NCBI RefSeq assembly: GCF_001761465.1
Contig: NZ_CP017479.1
Span: 3,968,001-4,032,000 of the forward strand
DNA length: 64,000 nt
Reading direction: 5' to 3'
Origin: Flavobacterium gilvum
GTDB taxonomy: Bacteria; Bacteroidota; Bacteroidia; Flavobacteriales; Flavobacteriaceae
Shown: positions 36,392 through 59,111 of the stretch, piece by piece
How the letters are laid out: each line of letters opens with the position of its first letter
Numbering within the stretch: the stretch's first letter is position 1
Translations under genes and position numbers: made by a program
The notes under the pieces: generated by a model
The model's database searches: none
What the model saw: only the letters and a program-made list of their open reading frames with translations
What the model was told of the DNA's origin: nothing

Positions 36392-38266
36392 TTAATTCAA
36401 CTGGTAAATAAACGATTCCAGTGGATGTATTGTTACCGTAGCTTTACCTTCTCCATTATTTACAACTAACTGGGTACTGCTCTTTTGATAAATCTGATCC
36501 TTCAGAGTGTAACTACCATCTTTCAAATTCCATTTATTTATAATATCTGCCGGTATTTTTAATTCAAAAGTATTGGAAGCATCTGACGAAAAATTAGTAA
36601 TTACGATTAATTTTTGATTATCCGACCAACGTACAAAAGAATACAAATGATTGGGATCATAACCAAGTCCCGCATGACGGTTTACTTCTTGTAAATCTTG
36701 AAATTGCCCCATCACCCCTGAACTTTTCCCAGAAAAACTGAGTAATCTTTTATAAAAATCACGCAAATCTTTTTCGCTTTTCGATAATTTTCCTCCATCA
36801 AAAGCGCCATCATTCATCCATCGTTGATGATTTGGCACACCTACATAATCAAAAATTGATGTTCTGGAGTGAGAACCAAAACCTCCGTTTTCGTTACCTG
36901 CCTCCCCTACTTCCTGACCAAAATAAATCATAATGGGTGCCGAAGTGATCATAGCAGAAACGACCATCATTGGCTTCCCTTTTTCGGGAGAGCCTGCAAA
37001 CTCAGGACTTGCCAAACGTTGTTCATCGTGATTATCCAAAAACTTCAACATATGAATATCAATATCCTGCAAACCGCTTTGAATATAGGAAAGTCCATCT
37101 GGTGGCGTTTTTCCCTGAATGATATCTTTCAACTTATCATAAGTCTCAACTTTGTCATACAAATAATCCATTTTACCCAAATGAATATAATTGCGATATT
37201 CTTTTGGATTATAGACTTCGGCCATTAGGAAAGCATCAGGGTTTACATTTTTTATGGCAGAGTTCATATAACTCCAAAACTCATAGGGAACCATTTCAGC
37301 CATATCATATCGAAAACCATCAACTCCTTTGGCTGTCCAATACAACGCTATGTCCCTAAATTTAATCCATGAATTGGGTACATTTTTGTCTTTCCAGAAT
37401 TCAAAATGGTCTTTAGCGGAAAGCTTATCAAAACCAGCAGGCAATTCAGGAAAATCTTTGGTTCCATCGGGACGAATTCCATAATTTACCTTAACTGTTT
37501 CGTACCAATCGTTTTTATCCGGTTTTGCCATTCGCGATCCGTTTCCTGTCCATTTTGCGGGATTTTCATCAAACTTTCCATCAATAAGCGGATTACTTTC
37601 CCCGTTTAAAGGTTTGTCGCCATCAGGCAACTGAAAAGGCGTATTTGGAATATAATAAAAATTATTATCTCTTTTATATTCAACTGTAACATCGTCATCG
37701 GCACCAAAATCCTTAACTCCTTTCGGATTATTTTTTCCTTCATATTTACGGGCAATATGATTAGGAACAATATCAATAATCACTTTTAAATTTGCCTTGT
37801 GGGTTCTTTTTATCAAAGCTTCAAATTCCTCCAAACGTTTTGCCGGATTTACAGCCAAATCAGGGTTTACATTATAATAATCCTTCACAGCATAGGGAGA
37901 ACCGGCTCTTCCTTTTACTACTTCCGGATCATCATTCGAAACCCCTATCGCAGTATAATCCCTGATAACCGCATGATGAGGAACACCTGTGTACCAAATA
38001 TGTGTAACTCCTAAGTCTTTAATTTCGTGAAGTGCTTTATCTGTAAAATCATTAAATTTACCAACACCATTTTCCTCGATAGTTCCCCATGGTTTATTGG
38101 TTGTGTTTTTATTTCCAAACAATCGGGTAAAAACCTGATAAACTACTGCTTTATTTTCTGGAACAGATTCTTTATTTTGTACACTCATTTTTACATCTTT
38201 CGTTTTACATCCAGTGGCAATAAGCAAAATACTTATCCCTGCAATTATTATTTTTTTTGTAATCAT
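36392..38266 (-). CDS. GH13 alpha-amylase-family lipoprotein
   Basis: The 624-residue protein has a lipoprotein signal (lipobox ATGC at about residues 17-20) and a complete GH13 barrel. DIVPNHIAR is conserved region I. GFRYDMAEMVP carries the nucleophile Asp, FLMAEVYN the acid/base Glu, and FLDNHDEQRLAS the transition-state Asp. A beta-sandwich C domain follows. It probably cleaves starch-like or maltodextrin substrates at the cell surface or in the periplasm. There are no SusC/SusD genes beside it. Confidence 0.92.
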   Translation of the reverse strand: MITKKIIIAGISILLIATGCKTKDVKMSVQNKESVPENKAVVYQVFTRLFGNKNTTNKPWGTIEENGVGKFNDFTDKALHEIKDLGVTHIWYTGVPHHAVIRDYTAIGVSNDDPEVVKGRAGSPYAVKDYYNVNPDLAVNPAKRLEEFEALIKRTHKANLKVIIDIVPNHIARKYEGKNNPKGVKDFGADDDVTVEYKRDNNFYYIPNTPFQLPDGDKPLNGESNPLIDGKFDENPAKWTGNGSRMAKPDKNDWYETVKVNYGIRPDGTKDFPELPAGFDKLSAKDHFEFWKDKNVPNSWIKFRDIALYWTAKGVDGFRYDMAEMVPYEFWSYMNSAIKNVNPDAFLMAEVYNPKEYRNYIHLGKMDYLYDKVETYDKLKDIIQGKTPPDGLSYIQSGLQDIDIHMLKFLDNHDEQRLASPEFAGSPEKGKPMMVVSAMITSAPIMIYFGQEVGEAGNENGGFGSHSRTSIFDYVGVPNHQRWMNDGAFDGGKLSKSEKDLRDFYKRLLSFSGKSSGVMGQFQDLQEVNRHAGLGYDPNHLYSFVRWSDNQKLIVITNFSSDASNTFELKIPADIINKWNLKDGSYTLKDQIYQKSSTQLVVNNGEGKATVTIHPLESFIYQLN

Positions 38267-47745: not shown

Positions 47746-47897
47746 ACAAAAACATTATTAACTTTTAAGCGAGTTTAGTTAATTATTCCAAAAGAAAACG
47801 GACGATTAACCATTCTAAATCATTATCGAAAATTTAAAAAAATCCGACAAAAGAGTAAGAAATAGTTGTTTTTGGAACGCATAGCTAAGAAAAAATA

Positions 47898-47940
47898 TGA
47901 TAATAATCATTTTAATCATCAAAAAGTCATGTTAATTTTG
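47898..47940 (+). promoter_or_regulatory. hemN promoter with Fnr-type box
   Basis: The dyad ATGAT-AATA-ATCAT (core 47898-47909, centre 47903.5) lies upstream of a perfect -7 element TAATTTTG (47933-47940). There is no TTTG at the -33 position. The centre is 29.5 bp upstream of the first -7 base, which puts the box near -42 relative to the predicted start, as in class II Fnr activation. The same distance occurs at ccoS and ccoI. Confidence 0.75.
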
Positions 47941-47963
47941 CCACTTACCACAACTGCTAAACT

Positions 47964-49328
47964 ATGAAAACCTCCCTTATTCAAAAATACAATGTCCCTG
48001 GACCCCGTTATACAAGTTATCCTACGGTTCCATATTGGGATGAGTTAGGATTCACCAATGAAATTTGGGTAGAATCCCTAAAAAAATCGTTTCAAGAAAG
48101 TAATGACAAAGAGGGTATCAGTTTATATATTCATTTGCCCTTTTGCGAAAGTCTGTGCACGTTTTGTGGCTGTAACAAACGAATTACCAAAAATCATAAT
48201 GTAGAAAATCCATATATTGAAGCAGTTCTAAAAGAATGGAATCTTTATTGCAAAATTTTGGGTGAAAAACCTAAAATCAAAGAAATTCATTTAGGTGGAG
48301 GAACTCCAACCTTTTTTTCAATAGAAAACCTTGAAACCTTACTAAACGGAATATTTTCGAAAGCCGACAAAGCGGATGGATACGAATTTAGTTTTGAAGG
48401 ACATCCCAATAACACAACTCTTGCTCATTTACAAAAGCTATATGATCTGGGTTTTAGAAGAGTAAGTTTTGGTGTTCAGGATTATTCCGAAAAAGTTCAA
48501 AAAGCGATTCACAGGATTCAACCTTTCCATAATGTTGCTAAAGTTACATTTTGGGCAAAAAAAATAGGTTATACCTCAATTGGCCATGATATTATTTTTG
48601 GGTTGCCTTTTCAGGAAGTGAAAGATGTTGTGGATACTATTGAAAAAACAAATTCATTGCAACCCGACCGATTGGCTTTCTACAGCTATGCGCATGTGCC
48701 ATGGATAAAAGGAAACGGGCAACGCGGTTTCCATGATGAAGATATCCCAAAAGATGATGCCAAAAGAAAATTATACGAAGTTGGGAAAGAATTACTTTTT
48801 GAAAATGAGTATTACGAAATCGGTATGGATCATTTTGCCTTAAAATCGGACAGTTTATACAAATCGTTTGGCAATAAAAAACTGCACCGAAACTTCATGG
48901 GATACAGCTCCTCAAAAACCCAATTAATGATTGGTTTGGGCGTTTCGTCCATTAGTGACAGTTGGTACAGTTTTGCACAAAATGTCAAAACCATCGAAGA
49001 ATATTACAAAATACTGGAATCAGATAAATTGCCGGTTTACAGAGGTCATCATTTGTCTGCCGAAGATTTGATTATCCGAAAACACATTCTGAATTTGATG
49101 TGTCATTTTGAAACCAGCTGGGAGGATTCGGCAAATTATGTCTCTGAAATTCCCGAAATTCTAATTCAGTTGAAAGAAATGGAGAACGATGGTTTATTGA
49201 CCATTGGTGATAAAAAAATAATTGTTACCGAAGAAGGAAAACCATACGTTCGTAACATTTGTATGGCTTTTGATTTACGATTAAAAAGAAAAGCCCCTGA
49301 AACTGCTTTGTTTTCAATGACAATTTAA
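47964..49328 (+). CDS. hemN: Oxygen-independent coproporphyrinogen III oxidase
   Basis: HemN is the radical SAM enzyme that makes protoporphyrinogen precursors without oxygen. The 454-residue protein has the cluster motif CESLCTFCGC (Cys61, Cys65, Cys68 and Cys70), which is the C-X3-C-X2-C-X-C form typical of true HemN. It also has LGGGTPTFFS near residue 111 and the SFEGHPNNTT region. The Fnr-type promoter and the adjacent cbb3 cluster fit haem supply at low oxygen. Confidence 0.95.
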   Translation: MKTSLIQKYNVPGPRYTSYPTVPYWDELGFTNEIWVESLKKSFQESNDKEGISLYIHLPFCESLCTFCGCNKRITKNHNVENPYIEAVLKEWNLYCKILGEKPKIKEIHLGGGTPTFFSIENLETLLNGIFSKADKADGYEFSFEGHPNNTTLAHLQKLYDLGFRRVSFGVQDYSEKVQKAIHRIQPFHNVAKVTFWAKKIGYTSIGHDIIFGLPFQEVKDVVDTIEKTNSLQPDRLAFYSYAHVPWIKGNGQRGFHDEDIPKDDAKRKLYEVGKELLFENEYYEIGMDHFALKSDSLYKSFGNKKLHRNFMGYSSSKTQLMIGLGVSSISDSWYSFAQNVKTIEEYYKILESDKLPVYRGHHLSAEDLIIRKHILNLMCHFETSWEDSANYVSEIPEILIQLKEMENDGLLTIGDKKIIVTEEGKPYVRNICMAFDLRLKRKAPETALFSMTI

Positions 49329-49390
49329 AAGAAACAATTTATCCTTATAAATATCATCTTAATTAATTTATAATTCATCTTTTTTCAATA

Positions 49391-49435
49391 CAAGAAAAAG
49401 CCAATTTCAATTTAATGACAATTGGCTTTTTCTTG
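49391..49435. terminator. Shared terminator between hemN and the SafE-like gene
   Basis: CAAGAAAAAGCCAATT (49391-49406) pairs perfectly with AATTGGCTTTTTCTTG (49420-49435), with A/T runs inside the arms. The right arm lies within the last codons of the minus-strand gene, so that gene's 3' end and the terminator overlap. Confidence 0.85.
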
Positions 49436-50113
49436 TATAAACAAACTCATATTGGAAGGAGAAACATAAGGTATTCCAAGTCCCAACCCTCTTAGAATAA
49501 ACAAAACACCAATTACAATCCCAACATAAGGAATTATTTTTTGAATGTTATTACGGAATGAAATACTCAAAAAAGAATTGATATAAACCACCAAACTCAT
49601 CAAAGGCACCGTTCCCAGTCCAAAAAGCAACATATACAGCACTCCAAAACTGGCACTTTGCATCGCAATTGCTCCAAACAAAGCCACATATACCATTCCG
49701 CAAGGCAAAAACCCATTAAGCAGGCCAATAATGAAAAGCGATTTAAAACTCTTATTTTTGAAATGACTTCCTAAATTTTGTTTGATTTTTGAAATCCATC
49801 CATAAACTGGTTTCGAAAAATTATATTTAGAAAAAACCTTTTCGGGAATCAAAATCACAAGAATCATTGCAACCCCAATAAAAATGGACAATTGCTGTTG
49901 AATTCCAGCCAAAAACAAGCCTTTACCCAATAATCCAAAAAGCAAACCAATACTTCCATAAGCTGTCAACCTTCCTAAATGATACGTACAAATCTGGATT
50001 ACTTTTTTGGCGGGATTATTTCGCTCTACAGGCAACATCATAGCAATGGGGCCGCACATTCCTATGCAGTGAAAACTACTGATTAAACCAAATAAAAAAG
50101 CGGTGTAAAGCAT
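49412..50113 (-). CDS. SafE/DsbD-like membrane protein of the cbb3 cluster (COG2836 type)
   Basis: The 233-residue protein has about six membrane helices. It starts with the motif LISSFHCIGMCGPIAMMLP and has a second related motif, LLNGFLPCGMVYVALFGAI, in the mid-protein. Members of this sulfite exporter/urease accessory-like family often accompany cbb3 oxidase genes and are thought to help copper or maturation steps. It is the last gene of the minus-strand cluster, 163 bases from ccoH. Confidence 0.85.
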   Translation of the reverse strand: MLYTAFLFGLISSFHCIGMCGPIAMMLPVERNNPAKKVIQICTYHLGRLTAYGSIGLLFGLLGKGLFLAGIQQQLSIFIGVAMILVILIPEKVFSKYNFSKPVYGWISKIKQNLGSHFKNKSFKSLFIIGLLNGFLPCGMVYVALFGAIAMQSASFGVLYMLLFGLGTVPLMSLVVYINSFLSISFRNNIQKIIPYVGIVIGVLFILRGLGLGIPYVSPSNMSLFIQEKANCH

Positions 50114-50276
50114 TTGTAGTTTATGGTTTGTGGTTTATGGTTTGCGGTTTATGGTTTATTGTTTTTTTGAGTAAAGTTTTTTCTGTTGATTTTAAAATAA
50201 AAGTTCGTTTTTTTTAAAACTAATTTATTGAATCTTTAACAATCAACTACCAACCATAAACAACAAACTATAAACC
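50114..50276. repeat. Inverted short-word repeats between SafE-like gene and ccoH
   Basis: Tandem GGTTTATGGTTTG words near 50118-50160 face AACCATAAACAACAAAC words near 50252-50276 on the other side of the spacer, giving loose dyad symmetry. No coding content. Confidence 0.5.
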
Positions 50277-50735
50277 TTACTTAATATAAATTTTTTCCTT
50301 GGTCAAATACGATTTCCCTCCATACTTCCATTCCATGTTGATGTACCATTCGCCTCCAACAAACTTTTCTTTAGGAATAAGCAAAGAAGCCGAATCCGCG
50401 AATGAAAGTGGTGCTTGAAAGTCAAATTTCTTATTGGAGGCTCTATAAAAAGCAACTGTTCCTTTGATTTCTTTTGGCGAAAAATTAGCTGGAAAAGCAA
50501 TTGTAATTCCATCCGTTTGAACAGAAATTACCGGTTTTTCTTTTAAATCATGAGCATTTTGAGCTCGAGCCATTTCATCCTGAAAATGAACATCATGCTT
50601 ATAATATTCCTCAACTACCAACTCATTGTCATACTTACTGTCTGACTGCACTTTTAAAACAAAATACATAATAAAGCTGATAAACAGTGCGAATGCAATA
50701 ACGATCGAAGTTCCCCAATTAATCTTTATTTTCAT
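50277..50735 (-). CDS. ccoH: CcoH/FixH family cytochrome oxidase accessory protein
   Basis: From MKIKINWGTSIVIAFALF the 152-residue protein has one N-terminal membrane helix and a FixH-type periplasmic domain. YYKHDVHFQDEMARAQN is near residue 44 and GTVAFYRASNKKFDF near 92. CcoH/FixH is needed for assembly of cbb3 oxidase in other bacteria. It follows ccoG by 35 bases. The earlier ATG at 50768 is less likely because it adds residues before the membrane helix. Confidence 0.87.
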   Translation of the reverse strand: MKIKINWGTSIVIAFALFISFIMYFVLKVQSDSKYDNELVVEEYYKHDVHFQDEMARAQNAHDLKEKPVISVQTDGITIAFPANFSPKEIKGTVAFYRASNKKFDFQAPLSFADSASLLIPKEKFVGGEWYINMEWKYGGKSYLTKEKIYIK

Positions 50736-50770
50736 TTTTATAAAATTAAACCTTGTGAATACTATCAAAA

Positions 50771-52189
50771 TTAATCAAAACTGCGCGGACTCAGAAAACT
50801 AGTATGTGTAGTTTCTATTTTTTTGTTCCCTTCATAGAGATCTATTTCTAGGTTAGTCCTATCACTTTCCAATAAAAACTTGTTAATTTCAATAAACATA
50901 GTTCCGCTAGACATTCCGTGCTTAGGAACTTTTAGCTCCTGAACACCAACCACTTTCAAAGTTCCTTTGATTCCAACCAATCTAAAATTCATGTCTTTGA
51001 TATCATGATTGGTTTTATTAATTATTTTAAAGGTATATATATTACTGATGTTTTCTCCTTTATGTTGAAACAATTGCCCCGGCAATCTCAAAATAGTGGC
51101 TTCGACTTCGGATCTTAAAAACAATAAACCCGTCAGAACACCTACTAAAATCACCAAAATTGCGGTATAACCTTTCATTCTGGCAGTAAATTTAAACTTG
51201 GCTTTAGTCTCTATTTCATCTTCAGATGCATAACGGATAAGCCCCAAAGGTAATCCTACGCTTTTCATAATCGTATCACATTCGTCAATGCAAGCTGTAC
51301 AATTTATACATTCCAGCTGAACGCCGTTACGAATATCAATTCCTGTTGGACATACGTGGACACATTGCTTACAATCGATACAATCCCCTTTTCCCGAAGC
51401 GGCTCTGTCTTCCTGTTTATTGAATTTGGCTCTACCTACTTCTTTTTCGCCACGAACAAAATCATAGGCTACATTTATTGATTTTTTGTCTAGTAAAACT
51501 CCTTGCAACCTTCCGTAAGGACAGGCGATAATACATACCTGTTCTCTAAACCAGGCAAAAACAAAATAGAAAACACTTGTAAAAATCAACAATGAGATAA
51601 AACTGCTAGAATGAACCAAAGGTCCGTCTTCAACCATTCGAAACAATTCGTCACTACCAACAAGATAAGCTAAAAATACATTGGCAATCAAAAATGAAAT
51701 AAAAAGAAAAGCAAACCATTTTAAAGTTTTCTTTCTTATTTTTCCACCATTCCATTCTTGTTTTTCCAAACGAATTTGCGCTCCCCTATCACCTTCTATC
51801 CAATATTCTATTCGGCGAAAAACCATTTCCATAAAAATAGTCTGAGGACAAATCCAACCGCAAAAAATCCTTCCGAAAATAACCGTAAATAAAATAACAA
51901 ACACTACCCCAATTACCATAAACAGAACAAAAATATAAAAGTCCTGAGGCCAAAAAGGGAAACTAAAGATATTAAAACGACGTTCCAAAACATTGAACAT
52001 CATGAACTGATTCCCGTTTATTTTTATAAATGGATTGACAATTAGAATTATCAATAAAAAATAGCTCACCCATTTTCTATAGTCATAAAACTTACCTGAA
52101 GGCTTTTTGGGATAAACATACTTTCTGTGACCTTCTTTATCAACAGTCCCAATGGTATCTCTGAAAGATTCGTCCAGTTTACTTGACAT
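50771..52189 (-). CDS. ccoG: Cytochrome c oxidase accessory protein CcoG (FixG/RdxA)
   Basis: CcoG reduces or handles copper during cbb3 assembly. The 472-residue protein has several membrane helices and the conserved FCGWICPQTIFMEMVFRRIE near residue 110. Two 4Fe-4S motifs, CIDCKQCVHVCPTGIDIRNG and CINCTACIDECDTIMKSVG, span about 260-310. A periplasmic Ig-like domain closes it. It lies between ccoP and ccoH. Confidence 0.94.
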   Translation of the reverse strand: MSSKLDESFRDTIGTVDKEGHRKYVYPKKPSGKFYDYRKWVSYFLLIILIVNPFIKINGNQFMMFNVLERRFNIFSFPFWPQDFYIFVLFMVIGVVFVILFTVIFGRIFCGWICPQTIFMEMVFRRIEYWIEGDRGAQIRLEKQEWNGGKIRKKTLKWFAFLFISFLIANVFLAYLVGSDELFRMVEDGPLVHSSSFISLLIFTSVFYFVFAWFREQVCIIACPYGRLQGVLLDKKSINVAYDFVRGEKEVGRAKFNKQEDRAASGKGDCIDCKQCVHVCPTGIDIRNGVQLECINCTACIDECDTIMKSVGLPLGLIRYASEDEIETKAKFKFTARMKGYTAILVILVGVLTGLLFLRSEVEATILRLPGQLFQHKGENISNIYTFKIINKTNHDIKDMNFRLVGIKGTLKVVGVQELKVPKHGMSSGTMFIEINKFLLESDRTNLEIDLYEGNKKIETTHTSFLSPRSFD

Positions 52190-52266
52190 TTTATTTCATT
52201 TAAATTAAAAAGAGCTTTCTCAAAGTATTGAATTTTGACAAAGCTCTTCATAGCAATAATTAAGGT

Positions 52267-53184
52267 TTATTTTGCTTCTGTTGCTCCAGCTGCAGGAGCC
52301 GAAGCATTATCTTCAACCCATATTTCACCATCTGGTGCTTTTGGATCTTTAGGATTACTTCCTTTTAAGGAGATAACATAGCTTGCAACCGCCTGAATTT
52401 CTTTTGGTTTTAAAGTTCCTTTCCAGGCAATCATCCCTTTACCATCTCTACCTCCATTGGTAATGGTGTGAAATAAATTCTTGATTCCACCTCCCAATAT
52501 CCAATGATCGTCTGTTAAGTTTGGACCAATTTGCCCTCCGGCATCGGCACGGTGACAAGCTACACAATTGGTCTGAAAGATAGCTTTACCTTTATCCAAA
52601 TCTGCTGGATCTGTTAACAATGTCACTGTTTTTTCATCCATTAAATCTGGGGCCGTTTTCATATACTCGGCTACTTCAATTTTGGCCTGCGCCATTTCAC
52701 TTTTCAATTCAGCCTCCTGATCTGGTGCTCCCAATACCTCGAAACGAACCAAATAAACTACTGCAAAAATAATACAGGCATAAAATAAATAAACCCACCA
52801 AGGCGGTAAATTATTGTCCAATTCTTTGATTCCATCATAATCATGATCCATCAATAATTCTTTCTCGTCTTCGATTGGAACTGTTCTTGTTAATCGTTGC
52901 ATCAGGTTTTTGTACCAAGTTTTCTCTTTCAGACTTAAAGTATCTTCATGAGCCAATCTTGCTTTTTCTTCATCAGACAACAATCTATAAGTGATTGCAT
53001 TAACAGCATTCAATGTTACTTCGATTGCAATCAAAAGGAAAAGCAATACAAACAAAAAGACCGCAACCATTGGGTATTTTATAAATGCCGGTTGATTTCC
53101 CGAATCAATAAAATATTCCATTGCTCCCAAGACGGAGAAAAATATGAAAAGAACTCTTATATAAGGCGGAATTAATTTTTTCAT
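52267..53184 (-). CDS. ccoP: cbb3 oxidase subunit CcoP, single-haem type
   Basis: CcoP passes electrons to the oxidase core. The 305-residue protein has two N-terminal membrane helices and the CcoP signature DGIKELDNNLPPWWVYLFYA (about 118-137). One cytochrome c domain has CVACH near residue 208 and a Met ligand in GMIAWKG. Classical CcoP carries two CxxCH motifs; only one is present here. A short Ala/Glu-rich tail ends it. Confidence 0.9.
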   Translation of the reverse strand: MKKLIPPYIRVLFIFFSVLGAMEYFIDSGNQPAFIKYPMVAVFLFVLLFLLIAIEVTLNAVNAITYRLLSDEEKARLAHEDTLSLKEKTWYKNLMQRLTRTVPIEDEKELLMDHDYDGIKELDNNLPPWWVYLFYACIIFAVVYLVRFEVLGAPDQEAELKSEMAQAKIEVAEYMKTAPDLMDEKTVTLLTDPADLDKGKAIFQTNCVACHRADAGGQIGPNLTDDHWILGGGIKNLFHTITNGGRDGKGMIAWKGTLKPKEIQAVASYVISLKGSNPKDPKAPDGEIWVEDNASAPAAGATEAK

Positions 53185-53211
53185 TATTTATATATTTTGA
53201 AATTGTACAAT

Positions 53212-53379
53212 TTAATCTTCCAAAGGGATTTGGCTAATTTCGTCTATAGTTTCTTTTTTATAAGAATAAACCCAAAGTCCGAGACCAAGAAAAAAGAAAA
53301 AGAAAATCAATAACGATAGTATTGGAAATATTGCAACACCGGCAATGGTTTCCATATTGTGTTTTATTTGCTCAAACAT
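53212..53379 (-). CDS. ccoQ: CcoQ-like small membrane subunit
   Basis: This 55-residue ORF lies between ccoNO and ccoP and starts with MFEQIKHNMETIAGVAIFPI. It has a single membrane helix (about 14-37) followed by a basic then acidic tail ending SQIPLED. Position, size and topology match CcoQ, which stabilises cbb3 oxidase. It starts 11 bases after the ccoNO stop codon. Confidence 0.8.
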   Translation of the reverse strand: MFEQIKHNMETIAGVAIFPILSLLIFFFFFLGLGLWVYSYKKETIDEISQIPLED

Positions 53380-53390
53380 AACGTTTACTT

Positions 53391-55568
53391 TTATTCTTTC
53401 ACTTTAATATCAGTACCTAATCTTTGAATGTAAGCAATCAATGCTACAATTTCCCTTTCGTTCATCGGGATGAATTTCTCACCTCTTGCTTCAGCTTTTT
53501 TCTTGCTTTCGTCATAACTTTTCACAAAGTCAGGGTCGTTTTTAAGGCTTTCTTCAATCGCAATGGCCTGAGTTCTTAAATCTTTTACACCATCTGCGAT
53601 TTGAGCATCAGTATAAGGAACACCAAGTGTTTTCATGGCTTTCATTTTCTTTTCGGTCATTGAAATATCCATTGCTTTGTTGTCAAACAACCATTTGTAG
53701 CTAGGCATAATAGACCCTGCCGATATACTTTGCGGACTCCAAAAGTGATTAAAATGCCAATTGTCATTGTATTTTCCTCCAACTCTCAACAAATCTGGAC
53801 CTGTACGTTTTGAACCCCATAAAAATGGATGATCGTACACAAACTCTCCAGCTTTGGATTGTGGCCCATAACGCTCCACTTCACTTCTGAAAGGACGAAC
53901 GGATTGTGAGTGACATCCCACACAACCTTCTCGGATATATAAATCGCGGCCTTCCAATTCTAAAGGTGTATATGGTTTAACACTTGAAATTGTTGGGATA
54001 TTTGATTTCACCATAATCGTTGGAACAATTTGGATAATTCCACCAATTAAAATAGCAATCGTTGCGAAAACAGCCATTTTTATTGGTTTTCTCTCCAACC
54101 ACGTATGGTATTTCTCCCCTTTTAATCTTCCTGCACTAATTGTTTTTAGAGCCGGAGCTTCAGCCAATTCATCTTCAACATCTTCTCCTGCTTTAACAGT
54201 CTTGATTATATTATAAACCAATGTCAGCATTCCTATTAAATACAGTGATCCTCCTATTGCTCTCATCCAGTACATCGGAATAATTTGCGTAACGGTTTCA
54301 AGGAAGTTACCATACGTTAAGGTTCCATCCGGATTGAATTGTTTCCACATAGAAGCCTGTAAAAATCCGGCCAAATACAATGGCAACGCATACAATATAA
54401 TTCCGAGTGTCCCTGCCCAAAAATGGAAATTGGCCAATTTCGTTGAATATAAAGTCGTTTTTGTCATTCTTGGAATCAACCAATAAATGATACCAAAAGC
54501 CATAAAACCGTTCCAAGCCAATGCTCCAACGTGAACGTGAGCAATAATCCAGTCAGTGTAGTGAGCTATGGCGTTTACATTTTTAAGGGAAAGCATTGGA
54601 CCTTCAAAAGTTGCCATACCGTAACCTGTCATGGCTACCACAAAGAACTTCAAAACCGGTTCTTCACGCACTTTATCCCAAACTCCTCTTAAAGTCAAGA
54701 GTCCATTAATCATACCTCCCCAAGATGGAGCAATCAACATTACAGAGAATACTACTCCTAAATTTTGAGCCCAAGTTGGCAAAGCCGAATACAATAAGTG
54801 GTGAGGTCCTGCCCAGATATATAAAAATATTAATGACCAAAAATGTATAATAGACAATCTATAAGAATACACTGGACGATTGGCAACTTTTGGCACAAAA
54901 TAGTACATCAATCCCAAAAATGGTGTGGTTAGGAAAAATGCAACCGCATTATGACCATACCACCACTGCACCAATGCATCTTGTACTCCTGCATAAACAG
55001 AGTAACTTTTCATTGCAGAAACTGGCAACTCCAAACTATTAAAAATATGTAATACTGCAACGGTTATAAATGTGGCTAAATAGAACCAAATGGCAACATA
55101 CAAATGACGTTCCCTTCTTTTTAACATTGTACCAATCATATTGATACCGAAAGCCACCCATATTAAAGCAATGGCAATATCAATGGGCCATTCGAGTTCG
55201 GCATACTCTTTTGATGAAGTATATCCTAATGGAAGTGAAATTGCAGCAGCAACAATAATTAATTGCCAACCCCAAAAATTAAGGTTACTCAAGAAATCAC
55301 TGTACATTCTGGCTTTTAATAAACGCTGTAACGAGTAATAAACACCCGCAAACATTGCGTTCCCCACAAAAGCAAAAATCACTGCATTGGTATGTAAAGG
55401 TCTTAATCTACCAAAACTTAACCACGAAATACCTTCGGTCATGTTTGGAAAAAGGAACATAGTAGCCAGTATAAGACCCACTAACATCCCCACCACTCCA
55501 AACAGTATGGTAGCATAAATGAACTTCTTTACAATTTTGTTGTCATAATAAAATTGTTCCATTTCCAT
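53391..55568 (-). CDS. ccoNO: cbb3 oxidase fused CcoN-CcoO subunit
   Basis: The 725-residue protein joins the catalytic subunit and the first cytochrome subunit. Residues about 1-480 are CcoN with 12 or more membrane helices and the haem/copper histidines (for example WYGHNAVAFFLTTPFLG, AGPHHLLYS and DWIIAHVHVGALAWNG). Residues about 540-725 are CcoO with one haem c, CVGCHSQ, and the Met ligand in SIMPSYKWL. Separate ccoN and ccoO are usual in Proteobacteria, and the fusion is typical of Bacteroidota. Confidence 0.95.
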   Translation of the reverse strand: MEMEQFYYDNKIVKKFIYATILFGVVGMLVGLILATMFLFPNMTEGISWLSFGRLRPLHTNAVIFAFVGNAMFAGVYYSLQRLLKARMYSDFLSNLNFWGWQLIIVAAAISLPLGYTSSKEYAELEWPIDIAIALIWVAFGINMIGTMLKRRERHLYVAIWFYLATFITVAVLHIFNSLELPVSAMKSYSVYAGVQDALVQWWYGHNAVAFFLTTPFLGLMYYFVPKVANRPVYSYRLSIIHFWSLIFLYIWAGPHHLLYSALPTWAQNLGVVFSVMLIAPSWGGMINGLLTLRGVWDKVREEPVLKFFVVAMTGYGMATFEGPMLSLKNVNAIAHYTDWIIAHVHVGALAWNGFMAFGIIYWLIPRMTKTTLYSTKLANFHFWAGTLGIILYALPLYLAGFLQASMWKQFNPDGTLTYGNFLETVTQIIPMYWMRAIGGSLYLIGMLTLVYNIIKTVKAGEDVEDELAEAPALKTISAGRLKGEKYHTWLERKPIKMAVFATIAILIGGIIQIVPTIMVKSNIPTISSVKPYTPLELEGRDLYIREGCVGCHSQSVRPFRSEVERYGPQSKAGEFVYDHPFLWGSKRTGPDLLRVGGKYNDNWHFNHFWSPQSISAGSIMPSYKWLFDNKAMDISMTEKKMKAMKTLGVPYTDAQIADGVKDLRTQAIAIEESLKNDPDFVKSYDESKKKAEARGEKFIPMNEREIVALIAYIQRLGTDIKVKE

Positions 55569-55634
55569 ATTTATAATTGATTTTAAAGTTGTTTTATAAG
55601 AAGAATTATTAATCGCTGAAGATTAAAGAGTCAT

Positions 55635-55814
55635 TTACCTTTTATTTTTAGATTCCTTCGAGGAAGCCTTTATTAATTCATCATCAAAAAGCATTCTGAC
55701 AGATGGCGTATAATCATCATCATATTGACCGGATTTTACTGCAAAAACAAATGCAATAAAAAAGCAAATGGCAACAAAAATACTGATAGCGATTAACAAA
55801 TAAATAACACTCAT
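55635..55814 (-). CDS. ccoS: cbb3 assembly protein CcoS
   Basis: From MSVIYLLIAISIFVAICFFI at 55814 the 59-residue protein has one membrane helix followed by the CcoS tail FAVKSGQYDDDYTPSVRMLFD. CcoS is required for cofactor loading of cbb3 oxidase. It lies upstream of ccoNO and has its own promoter with an Fnr-type box. Longer frames reaching 55874 overlap that promoter and are rejected. Confidence 0.9.
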   Translation of the reverse strand: MSVIYLLIAISIFVAICFFIAFVFAVKSGQYDDDYTPSVRMLFDDELIKASSKESKNKR

Positions 55815-55837
55815 AACATATAAAAATATTAGGTTAA

Positions 55838-55885
55838 CAAATGTAATTTCATCACTTTTAAGAAAACATGACAAATATCATGTTT
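55838..55885 (-). promoter_or_regulatory. ccoS-ccoNO promoter with Fnr-type box
   Basis: On the minus strand the box ATGAT-ATTT-GTCAT (core at 55869-55880, centre 55874.5) sits in a wider dyad, AAACATGA and TCATGTTT (55864-55885). The -7 element TACATTTG (55838-55845) is perfect, 24 bases before the ccoS ATG. Centre to -7 is 29.5 bp, as at hemN and ccoI. Confidence 0.75.
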
Positions 55886-55935
55886 AATCCAATATGTTAA
55901 ATTTATGAAAAAAATTAAAGCAATTCCCTATTATA

Positions 55936-58314
55936 CTACTTTATTTTCGATGAGTAATAGTTACTCATCACCGTTACAAAACTTACTATCGTAATGGTAC
56001 TCAACGGCATAATGATTGCAGCTACCAACGGTAGAAGATTTCCGGTAACAGCAAAAGACAATCCAACAACATTGTACAAAAGAGATAAAACAAAACTCAT
56101 TTTGATTGTAGTAATAGATTTTTTGGATAATTTTAAAAAATAATGAAGTCTTTTAAATTCTTTTGCATCCAAAATAGCATCGCAGGCAGGAGAAAAAACA
56201 TTTACGTTTTCGGATATTGAAACACCTACATTACTCTGAGCCAAAGCCCCGGCATCATTAAGACCATCACCTACCATCATTACATTTTTGCCCTGCTCCT
56301 GCAAGGATTTTATGAATTGTAATTTTTGTTCCGGTTTTTGATTAAAAACCATTTCGGTTCCTTTGGGCAAAATTGATTCTAGCACGCTTCGTTCTCCTTC
56401 GTTGTCACCAGACAAAACTTTGAGCTCATATTGCAAACTCATTTTACCAAACAATTCAGACAAACCTTCTCGGTATTGATTATTGAATATATATTTCCCA
56501 AAGTATTCGTTGGCTATTTTAACAAGGACAGCGGTTTGCTGGATTTCGTTTTCTCCTCTTTGATTAATAAAATAGGCAGAACCCATTTGTATCTCAATCC
56601 CATCAACCACAGCCTGAATTCCTTTTCCGGTTACCTCTTCGAATGAGTCCAATTTTAATCTTTTGGTTTCTGGAAGAAAATCATATAACATCCTACTCAA
56701 AGGATGATTTGATGCTCGAAGTACACTTTTCAGTATTGTCAAATTGGATTCGTCAATACTTTTTCCTTCATAAAAAATATTCGATTTGGAATTGGTAGTT
56801 ATCGTTCCGGTTTTATCAAAAACAACCGTATCTACTTTTGCCAATTGTTCAATCACCAAGGCATTTTTTAGATAAAAATGTTTATTGCCAAAAATCCGAA
56901 GCATATTTCCCATCGTAAAAGGTGCAGTCAACGCCAATGCACAAGGACAAGCAACAATCAACACTGCAGTAAAAACATTGAAAGCGGTATTGGCATCAAA
57001 AAATATCCAATAGCCAAATCCTACAAAGGCAATCATCAAAAGAATTGGCGTAAAATAACGGCTAATCCTGTCGGTGATTGTTTTGTGTTTTTGCTCAAAC
57101 CTTTTCTGAAAAACATCATTACTCCATAATTGAGTCAGATAACTTTGGGAAACCGAATGCAAAACTTCCATTTCAACAACTTTCCCTATCTGTTTTCCTC
57201 CGGCAAAAACCTTATCTCCAGATTTTTTTGTAATTGGAACAGCTTCTCCGGTTACAAAACTATAATCAATTTCGGCTTTATCAGATATCAAAATACCATC
57301 AACCGGAATCAGTTCTTGGTTACGAATCAATAATCGGTCGCCTTTTTCAATTTCATAAACAGGAATACTTTCCTCGGTGAAATCAGTATTTATTTTTGTT
57401 ATAGCTATTGGAAAATAAGATTTAAAATCCCTTTCGAAACTTAAGAAACTATAAGTCTTAATCTGAAACATTTTTCCCAATAACATAAAAAATATTAAAC
57501 CTGTCAGGCTGTCAAAAAAGCCTGAACCATAATCCATTATAATATCAAATGTGCTTCGAACAAACATCACGACAATTCCCAATGCTATAGGAATGTCTAT
57601 ATTAAGCATTTTGGATTTTATGCTTTTGATGGCCGAAACATAATACCCACTCGCCGAATACAAAAAAGAAGGCAAAGACAATGCAAAAATCAATCCCCGG
57701 AAAAAAGGACGATAATTATCCAGCCAATATTCTTTTACTTCGAAATATTCAGGGAAAGAAAGCAGCATTATATTTCCAAAACAAAAGAAGGCAACTCCCA
57801 ATTTATAAGTCAAACTTCTGTCAATATTGCTTTTTCCTGTTTCGTAATTTTCTAGGCTGATATAGGGTTCATAGCCGATGGAACTCAACAAATGAACAAT
57901 ACTTTTTAGAGAAACAATTTCAGAATTGAAATTAATTCGCACTTTCTTTTCGGGAAAATTAACCTGAGAAATAGTAATACCTTTTTGAAGTTTCTGTAAA
58001 TTTTCAAGAATCCAAATACAGGAACTGCAATGAATATGAGGTATGCTCAAGGAAACAATCGCAGTGCTGTCTTCCTGGAATTCCAATAATTTTGAAACAA
58101 TACTTTCGTTGTCTAGAAAATCATATTTCCCATTAATATCTTGTGGAGTTGCGCCTGGCGATTTTTCGAAATCATAATAACAGGTCAAATCATTCAAACT
58201 AAAAATTTCGTAAACGGTTTTACATCCATTGCAGCAAAACTCCTTTTTATCAAAGACAATTTTGTCTTCTATTTCTATATTTAAACCACAATGAAAACAA
58301 TTCTTATTTTCCAT
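55936..58314 (-). CDS. ccoI: Copper-transporting P-type ATPase of cbb3 assembly (CcoI/FixI)
   Basis: CcoI supplies copper for the oxidase. From MENKNCFHCGLNIEI the 792-residue protein has an N-terminal Cys-rich metal site (CFHCG and FCCNGC), a heavy-metal-associated domain (IHCSSCIWI near 95) and membrane helices. The transport motif is ACPCALAL, the phosphorylation site DKTGTIT and the hinge GDGLNDAGAL. The frame reaches 58350, but that ATG is upstream of the predicted transcript start. It is divergent from the fnr-like gene. Confidence 0.94.
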   Translation of the reverse strand: MENKNCFHCGLNIEIEDKIVFDKKEFCCNGCKTVYEIFSLNDLTCYYDFEKSPGATPQDINGKYDFLDNESIVSKLLEFQEDSTAIVSLSIPHIHCSSCIWILENLQKLQKGITISQVNFPEKKVRINFNSEIVSLKSIVHLLSSIGYEPYISLENYETGKSNIDRSLTYKLGVAFFCFGNIMLLSFPEYFEVKEYWLDNYRPFFRGLIFALSLPSFLYSASGYYVSAIKSIKSKMLNIDIPIALGIVVMFVRSTFDIIMDYGSGFFDSLTGLIFFMLLGKMFQIKTYSFLSFERDFKSYFPIAITKINTDFTEESIPVYEIEKGDRLLIRNQELIPVDGILISDKAEIDYSFVTGEAVPITKKSGDKVFAGGKQIGKVVEMEVLHSVSQSYLTQLWSNDVFQKRFEQKHKTITDRISRYFTPILLMIAFVGFGYWIFFDANTAFNVFTAVLIVACPCALALTAPFTMGNMLRIFGNKHFYLKNALVIEQLAKVDTVVFDKTGTITTNSKSNIFYEGKSIDESNLTILKSVLRASNHPLSRMLYDFLPETKRLKLDSFEEVTGKGIQAVVDGIEIQMGSAYFINQRGENEIQQTAVLVKIANEYFGKYIFNNQYREGLSELFGKMSLQYELKVLSGDNEGERSVLESILPKGTEMVFNQKPEQKLQFIKSLQEQGKNVMMVGDGLNDAGALAQSNVGVSISENVNVFSPACDAILDAKEFKRLHYFLKLSKKSITTIKMSFVLSLLYNVVGLSFAVTGNLLPLVAAIIMPLSTITIVSFVTVMSNYYSSKIK

Positions 58315-58347
58315 AAACGAAAGGGGGTAAATTTTTATTAAAACGAA

Positions 58348-58390
58348 CAAAATTCACAAATTGATTGTGTCCCAACAATGATATTTATCA
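58348..58390 (-). promoter_or_regulatory. ccoI promoter with Fnr-type box in the ccoI-fnr intergenic region
   Basis: The core TGAT-ATTT-ATCA lies at 58379-58390 (centre 58384.5). On the minus strand GAATTTTG (58348-58355) is a one-mismatch -7 element 34 bases before the ccoI ATG at 58314, with 29.5 bp from centre to first -7 base. The same box overlaps the -33 region of the divergent regulator gene, so it could activate ccoI and repress the regulator at once. Confidence 0.7.
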
Positions 58391-58400
58391 TATAAATGTA

Positions 58401-58408
58401 TAACTTTG
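58401..58408 (+). promoter_or_regulatory. -7 element of the Crp/Fnr regulator gene
   Basis: TAACTTTG matches TAnnTTTG exactly, 23 bases before the ATG at 58431. The Fnr-type box at 58379-58390 occupies the place of a -33 element, which suggests autorepression. Confidence 0.65.
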
Positions 58409-58430: not shown

Positions 58431-59111
58431 ATGAGTAAATGTGAACAATGTATAGTGAGAGAATTTAGCTCTTTGAAAGCACTAAGTAAAGACGAACTTA
58501 TAAGAATTTCAGAATGCAAAACCTCCCGAACCATCAAAAAGGGAGAAACTATATTTGAAGAAGGTGAAAATGTCAACGGTATTTTTTGTGTAAAAGACGG
58601 TATTTGCAAATTGACCAAATTAAGTCCAAACGGAAAAGACCAAATCGTAAAATTGATTGCTAAAGGTGAGCTATTGGGTCAGCGCTCGATGATAAGTGAC
58701 GAGCCTGCGAATTTGAGTGCCATAGCATTAGAGGATATGCAAGTTTGTTTTATTCCTAAAAATGAAATTTTAGGATTCTTTGACAAAAACAATCAGTTTT
58801 CGATGAATGTTATGAAATCGATTTGTGGAGATTTGAGAACTGCGGATGACCACATGGTCAATATGGCTCAAAAATCTGTAAAAGAAAGATTGGCTGAAAC
58901 GTTGGTTTACTTGCATGAAACTTTTGGAACAAATACCGACAAAACCTTAAAAGTACAGCTATCAAGAGACGAATTGGCTAGTATGATTGGAACAGCTACC
59001 GAAAGCTGTATCCGATTATTGTCCGATTTTAACAAAATGGAACTAATCGAATTAGTTGGTAAAAAAATTGTTCTGAAAGACCTTCCAAAACTTAAAAAAC
59101 TAGCTGAGTAA
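58431..59111 (+). CDS. fnr: Crp/Fnr family transcriptional regulator
   Basis: The 226-residue protein has a cyclic-nucleotide-binding-like domain (about 20-140) and a C-terminal winged helix. The recognition helix region LSRDELASMIGTATESCIRL has Glu and Arg four apart as in Fnr and Crp, which read TGA/TCA half-sites. The N-terminus has Cys4 and Cys7 and a further Cys29, so it may bind an iron-sulfur cluster, although the spacing differs from E. coli Fnr. The position beside ccoI and the three boxes point to an oxygen-responsive regulator of cbb3 and hemN. Confidence 0.88.
   Translation: MSKCEQCIVREFSSLKALSKDELIRISECKTSRTIKKGETIFEEGENVNGIFCVKDGICKLTKLSPNGKDQIVKLIAKGELLGQRSMISDEPANLSAIALEDMQVCFIPKNEILGFFDKNNQFSMNVMKSICGDLRTADDHMVNMAQKSVKERLAETLVYLHETFGTNTDKTLKVQLSRDELASMIGTATESCIRLLSDFNKMELIELVGKKIVLKDLPKLKKLAE

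Follow-up and report, generated by a model that had tools for sequence, protein, structure and literature searches.

Why do three promoters in one module of respiratory and heme genes carry the same palindrome at the same distance from their core elements? The question is posed by a 64,000-nucleotide stretch of the Flavobacterium gilvum genome (contig NZ_CP017479.1, positions 3,968,001 to 4,032,000), hereafter the window, in which the genes of a cbb3 oxidase lie beside hemN and a gene for a Crp/Fnr regulator at 58431. The box is a 14-base palindrome, ATGAY-N4-RTCAT, and at hemN, ccoS and ccoI alike a gap of 22 bp separates it from the -7 element, which puts the box centre 29.5 bp from the first base of that element. 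Direct reading of the letters gave box centres of 47903.5, 55874.5 and 58384.5 and exactly this distance at all three promoters, as the original prediction had it; the boxes and -7 elements were at the places it gave, and its start coordinate was one base late, the hemN box beginning at 47897. With a probability of about 0.83, the boxes would be class II activator sites (predicted centre -41.5) for the 58431 regulator, which would turn on the cbb3 oxidase, a copper pump and oxygen-independent heme synthesis at low oxygen.

The gap between box and element was allowed to vary, which provides a built-in control for chance pairing. In the host genome (4.40 Mb scanned), ATGAN6TCAT-N{7,37}-NANNTTTG gave 34 pairs, 11 of them at gap 22 where 0.77 were expected (P 7e-10), and TGAYN4RTCA combined with TANNTTTG gave 44 pairs, 18 of them at gap 22, for which the counts at the remaining gaps predict 0.87 (Poisson P 5e-18). 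Fifteen other genomes of the genus contained 114 pairs of ATGAYN4RTCAT with TANNTTTG, distributed as 67 at gap 22, 16 at gap 23 and 5 at gap 21 (1.57 expected at one gap). The pattern scored 127 in this genus scan and its reversed control 22, and gap-22 sites were present in all 16 genus genomes. In 1.58 Mb of public genomes around 80 CcoNO loci, 138 pairs had gaps of 0-60, and 78 of these were at gap 22 (1.00 expected); 43 of the 80 loci had at least one such site. The class was counted on 10 genomes other than the host, those of 40 with matches listed in full, the host genome being counted from its own separate scan; among the matches listed, 129 pairs were found, with 33 at gap 22, 11 at gap 21 and 9 at gap 23 (3.20 expected at one gap). 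Orthologous promoters recur among relatives, so P values from several genomes overstate, and the single-genome counts are the nearly independent ones. In each of these sets the pairs of box and TAnnTTTG peak at gap 22.

Taken alone, the box is a weaker signal: it occurred 29 times in the window (at most one mismatch) against 14.1 expected, a count reached by 1 of 100 shuffles, and the exact matches at 36647 and 62888 were in no TAnnTTTG pair. Neither an E. coli-type TTGA-N6-TCAA nor a CRP-type TGTGA box displayed a gap-22 peak in the 80 CcoNO loci. The base after TCA in the host genome was an A in none of the 18 pairs at gap 22 versus 12 of the 26 at other gaps, which argues that the E. coli-type TTGAT-N4-ATCAA is not the box used. 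A composite scan for deep clades, made on the 37 loci without a strict site, gave any candidate in 15; 12 candidates scored at least 4 (0.47 per permuted matrix), and 8 of these were at gap 44.

In F. psychrophilum, the main text of PMC9723704 places TAnnTTTG at -12 to -5, and together with a gap of 22 this puts the predicted box centre at -41.5. The corresponding starts are predicted at 47945 for hemN, 55833 for ccoS, 58343 for ccoI and 58413 for the regulator gene (fnr), 18-29 nt before the ATG. Of the 78 family sites, 67% have an A at the predicted +1, versus 37-41% at neighbouring positions. These sites also outlined an extended motif with C or T at -49 in 90%, an A/T spacer and a run of T from -33 to -30 (75-85% T) that has no G at -30; their gene labels came from short motif matches, and 30 and 29 of the 78 stayed 'other' in two tallies. 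According to PMC3688515, the FNR site lies within 4 nt of -41.5 at 19 of the 23 activated E. coli promoters whose starts are known. Two marks of class II Crp/Fnr control are present: a predicted site centre near -41.5, as projected from the position of the element in a related species, and a spacing fixed across unrelated promoters. The class II reading originally proposed, with a Crp/Fnr protein as activator, fits the fixed spacing, the recurrence at unrelated promoters and in relatives and the conversion to -41.5, and these lend it support. A dimer at -41.5 would contact sigma region 4 and alpha and so stand in for the -33 element. When oxygen is limiting, F. psychrophilum raises its heme genes and those of the cbb3 oxidase (PMC9723704, main text), which fits the predicted direction of control.

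The Bacteroidota sigma-A -7 element is TAnnTTTG, which hemN and ccoS match; ccoI matches only NAnnTTTG. Within the family, the first base of the -7 element was a T in 17 of 17 ccoS/N sites and 14 of 14 hemN sites and in 0 of 18 ccoI sites, a conserved weak ccoI core that fits the need for an activator. The claim that the three promoters have no -33 TTTG was true at -33 itself, where 0 of the 78 family sites start with TTTG or TTG (TTTG occurs somewhere within nine bases after the box in 6). As an argument it has little weight, since TTTG starting at -33 was also rare among box-free promoters (2 of 178 in a crudely picked set).

The 58431 protein is the likely best candidate for the binder of the boxes. 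Its gene is divergent from ccoI with a common box between them, and the protein consists of a cyclic nucleoside monophosphate (cNMP)-binding roll (PF00027) and a Crp-type helix-turn-helix (HTH) domain (PF13545). Its AlphaFold2 model (predicted local distance difference test score 89) is close to P. gingivalis 2gau and has a template modelling score of 0.82 against A. fischeri holo-FNR 5e44. The protein reached 87.7 bits with the NCBIfam Fnr model NF008365, which has a cut-off of 228, and was far under the cut-offs of the FnrL and FixK models. An ortholog above 300 bits was present in 16 of 16 genus genomes. With an ortholog defined as a match of at least 40% identity within the fetched flanks, site and ortholog occurred together in 28 of the 80 CcoNO loci, the site only in 15, the ortholog only in 10 and neither in 27 (Fisher P 0.0008, a value that relatedness inflates). 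In the recognition helix, residues E191, I194 and R195 were invariant in an alignment of 39 sequences, comprising the matches of at least 40% identity from 38 loci and the window. The I stands where classical FNR has S. In FNR this serine reads the first base of TTGAT, and its change to I would fit a shift of the box to ATGAT.

The same sites could instead be class II sites of a different member of the Crp/Fnr family, for instance the paralog at C1:922704-923360 of the host (L248, L278), leaving the 58431 protein a minor part, which we consider unlikely. That paralog is FNR-like, with CxxCx4C and a later cysteine and no C53, copies of its type in G004, G008 and G012 carry the E-x-x-I-R helix, and the host has four further cNMP-domain genes. 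The CxxCx4C type is found in 5 of 16 genus genomes, whereas gap-22 sites are found in 16 of 16, and its helix reads E-x-x-T-R in the host, E-x-x-I-R being the form in three of the four relatives. Two genomes, G005 and G009, have the window-type regulator only (E<=1e-8), and yet their ccoS and hemN promoters have gap-22 sites.

What the 58431 regulator might sense is suggested by its cysteines. C4, C7, C53 and C106 were kept in every one of the 54 sequences that scored 290 bits or more, the window gene included. In the alignment C4, C7 and C106 fall on cysteines of FNR, whose third N-terminal cysteine has no equivalent here, and the extra C53, which aligns with the Ala of LYAIRSG, lies within a strand of the roll. 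An alignment of 149 rows that included the window and A. fischeri FNR had 122 rows with C4, C7 and C106. Among these, C53 was present in 4 of 28 rows with a near third cysteine (4-6 residues after C7) and in 91 of the other 94, a partition in which relatedness inflates any P value for C53 exclusivity. Strict exclusion of C53 by any third N-terminal cysteine was false, both occurring in 31 of 149 rows; in rows with C53 and an extra N-terminal cysteine, the extra one was mostly 7-14 residues after C7. A [4Fe-4S] cluster with C53 as a relocated ligand is the simplest reading, plausible and unproven. The sensor would then be an oxygen-labile [4Fe-4S] cluster in which C53 replaces the third N-terminal cysteine of classical FNR.

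On the regulator side, the box shared with ccoI is at gap 9 from the -7 element, which puts its predicted centre at -28.5, over the -33 region. Gaps of 8-13 were found on this side in 21 of 38 orthologs (TAnnTTTR allowed), and such variable spacing fits steric repression. One box is accordingly predicted to have two jobs, activation of ccoI at -41.5 and repression of fnr at -28.5, and the latter would close a negative feedback loop on the regulator's own promoter. The regulator promoters of L068, L070, L072 and L076 have their own box at gap 22, for which autoactivation is predicted, perhaps a switch of sign relative to the repressing distance in Flavobacterium, and those of L079, L096 and L102 have their own box at gap 33.

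Could all boxes be repressor sites that are released at low oxygen? Crp/Fnr proteins are able to repress, and the -28.5 position on the fnr side is repressor-like. Steric repression, however, requires no base-exact spacing, and it is the presumed repressor side that varies (gaps 8-13, as above) whereas on the opposite side the gap stays at 22; a centre of -41.5 is moreover the class II activator position in the account of PMC3688515, and we hold general repression to be very improbable. That the common spacing reflects chance or the shared ancestry of three neighbouring promoters, as AT-rich sequence and the roughly twofold enrichment of the box alone in the window might suggest, is hardly credible given a peak at non-homologous promoters of one genome (P 7e-10 and 5e-18) that returns in all three groups of relatives, and chance spacing is ruled out by the gap histograms of the host, the genus, the CcoNO loci and the class genomes.

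Several observations count against class II activation by the 58431 protein or limit its reach. In the 67 genus sites the predicted +1 was an A in only 53%, and position +4 was an A in 65%. The T at -12 is missing from the ccoI -7 element of the window and from all 18 family ccoI sites. One of the 10 class genomes, G043, had zero gap-22 pairs. Within the host genome, the gap-22 pair at 1767361, one of the 11 found with the first pattern, sits inside coding sequence and probably arose by chance, and the pair at 4269987 is 281 bp from an ATG. A perfect gap-22 box with its -7 element (C1:2833534-2833576) is followed 301 bp downstream by a gene that by eye resembles an IS transposase; an insertion there may have cut off a former target. 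As to the binder, 15 of the 43 site-bearing family loci had no ortholog of at least 40% identity within the fetched flanks, and the host genome encodes seven proteins with a cNMP domain; HTH_Crp_2 is present in three, and the examination covered 3 of the 7. The CxxCx4C paralogs of G004, G008 and G012 and the sister regulators described below also read E-x-x-I-R, which makes the recognition helix weak as proof of the binder. Finally, the regulator box of other clades is at gap 22, 33 or 44, for which different autoregulation is predicted.

The boxes had been taken to define a local regulon. This was not borne out, as the 18 gap-22 pairs are spread genome-wide in the host. They precede hemN, ccoS and the genes for a class I fumarase, NadA, FdhD, a Pta-type protein, YceI, a small cytochrome c, carbonic anhydrase, a CBS protein, phosphoenolpyruvate carboxykinase, a pyridoxal phosphate-dependent decarboxylase, a thioredoxin-like protein, an AraC-type regulator and a tetratricopeptide repeat protein; the target at 1051915 is a protein without a Pfam match, and those at 2833534 and 4269987 are doubtful. 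Several of these targets are respiratory or related to iron-sulfur clusters. Relatives add NirK-, NarK- and flavohemoglobin-type proteins, RIC, Rrf2, a U32 protein and a cytochrome c with weak similarity to NorB; the labels fumarase, Pta, NirK, NarK and Hmp were under NCBIfam cut-offs, and several sequences ended at the locus edge. For 3 of the 93 sites in the target search, no frame of 60 aa with an ATG start lay within 350 bp.

The 16 genus sites at gap 23, with their centre at -42.5, form a class with a different extended box (approximately TTTATGATTTNARTCATAAA). By sequence, 7 of them precede a membrane-like protein of 93-95 aa and 2 a flavohemoglobin-like protein (one scanned), and 9 of the 16 adjoin the gene of another Crp/Fnr protein, about 200 aa long. 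In G002, G003, G004, G006, G012 and G014 (loci L208, L187, L154, L223, L183 and L191) the box is at most 25 bp from the match end of this gene and precedes the membrane-like protein of 93-95 aa. Four aligned sister regulators of about 200 aa had no CxxC, no C53 and no C106. The gap-23 sites possibly mark a nitric oxide (NO) regulon. Genes of the gap-23 type also occur at gap 22 (L204, L198, L155), and sister regulators adjoin gap-22 boxes in G001 and G007, both of which count against a strict gap-23 rule. Bacteroidota might have an oxygen switch of their own, in which an FNR relative with a [4Fe-4S] cluster on rewired ligands (C4, C7, C53, C106) would act at exactly -41.5 on TAnnTTTG promoters and a sister lacking those cysteines, perhaps sensing NO, would read a sister box at -42.5, the shift of one base helping to sort the two regulons; we offer this tentatively and with some doubt, its odds being lowered by the sister regulators beside gap-22 boxes in G001 and G007.

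Two further patterns were seen. Tandem boxes exactly 22 bp apart (-63.5/-41.5) occurred in L097, L099, L101, L108, L113, L118 and L124, at cco and other promoters of records not titled Flavobacteriaceae. Several class genomes, for example in L313-L315, have open frames, about 350-390 aa long, in the later part of which the Crp/Fnr model matches from its position ~20 onward.

The genes and sites of the module are listed in Table 1. The run headed by ccoS has the order ccoS-ccoNO-ccoP-ccoG-ccoH-DsbD_2, and the nearest match of CcoNO was from Flavobacterium restrictum (93%). The role of ccoI would be the supply of copper for the cbb3 oxidase.

Table 1. Genes, boxes and -7 elements of the cbb3/hemN module (window coordinates).
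Feature	Position	Strand	Basis or remark
hemN Fnr-type box ATGATAATAATCAT	47897..47910	+	read directly; gap 22 to -7 element
hemN -7 element TAATTTTG	47933..47940	+	
hemN, oxygen-independent coproporphyrinogen III oxidase	47964..49328	+	TIGR00538 408.6 bits, cut-off 324.95
DsbD_2 / cytochrome c biogenesis membrane protein, at the end of the cco run	49412..50113	-	PF13386
ccoH (FixH)	50277..50738	-	PF05751
ccoG (FixG)	50771..52189	-	TIGR02745 over cut-off
ccoP-like subunit	52267..53184	-	PF14715, PF13442; TIGR00782 118.4 bits, below cut-off 179.95
ccoNO fusion, cbb3 oxidase subunits I/II	53391..55568	-	NF011053 1332.6 bits
ccoS, at the head of the predicted ccoSNOPGH operon	55635..55814	-	TIGR00847 over cut-off
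ccoS -7 element TACATTTG	55838..55845	-	
ccoS Fnr-type box ATGATATTTGTCAT (minus-strand letters)	55868..55881	-	
ccoI, P-type ATPase with PF12156 metal-binding head	55936..58314	-	PF12156, PF00122
ccoI -7 element GAATTTTG	58348..58355	-	
Shared divergent ccoI/fnr box ATGATAAATATCAT (minus-strand letters)	58378..58391	. (ccoI minus, fnr plus)	
Regulator gene -7 element TAACTTTG	58401..58408	+	gap 9 from box
Crp/Fnr regulator with C4, C7, C53, C106 and recognition helix GTATESCIR	58431..59111	+	PF00027, PF13545, alignment

Oxygen sensing in Bacteroidota is little described in the literature searched, and the core promoters of the phylum differ from the E. coli model. No report of the box or the spacing rule was found in titles and the beginnings of abstracts, subscription papers and supplements aside, and in the main text of PMC9723704 the words 'Fnr' and 'Crp' never occur. 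A base-exact rule of palindrome, 22 bp and TAnnTTTG makes microaerobic regulons readable from sequence across the class, and the shifted cysteine pattern offers a direct test of how far the FNR cluster site can be rewired.

Among known systems, the 58431 protein shares with E. coli and A. fischeri FNR the Crp fold, CxxC, the late cysteine of VCxIP and a palindromic box, and with FNR class II promoters a predicted centre at -41.5 and respiratory targets. It differs from them by the lack of the third N-terminal cysteine, by the presence of C53 and by the helix ExxIR where FNR has ExxSR. The E. coli FNR consensus is TTGAT-N4-ATCAA, whereas the box here is ATGAY-N4-RTCAT and the core promoter TAnnTTTG. 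In Proteobacteria, cbb3 and hemN are controlled by FixK, FnrL and Anr, which have the same target genes and the same logic of microaerobic activation, but belong to another phylum and use another box and core promoter. HcpR2 of Bacteroides and Porphyromonas is of the same Crp/Fnr family and phylum, but has hcp as its target and, as given in PMC1274295, the consensus GTAACnnnnGTTAC, an operator different from the box found here. MalR-like Crp/Fnr homologs of Flavobacteriales and Saprospiraceae are of the same family and order as the 58431 regulator (PMC8510549). For one Flavobacteriales genome, that bioreactor study predicted carbon sensing and suggested stimuli other than oxygen, from which the oxygen reading proposed here differs. 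The comparison supports a system in which the class II logic of FNR would operate on the promoter of another phylum with an altered set of cysteines, mechanism and sensing being those predicted above, and it suggests that the -41.5 geometry was kept on a very different core promoter.

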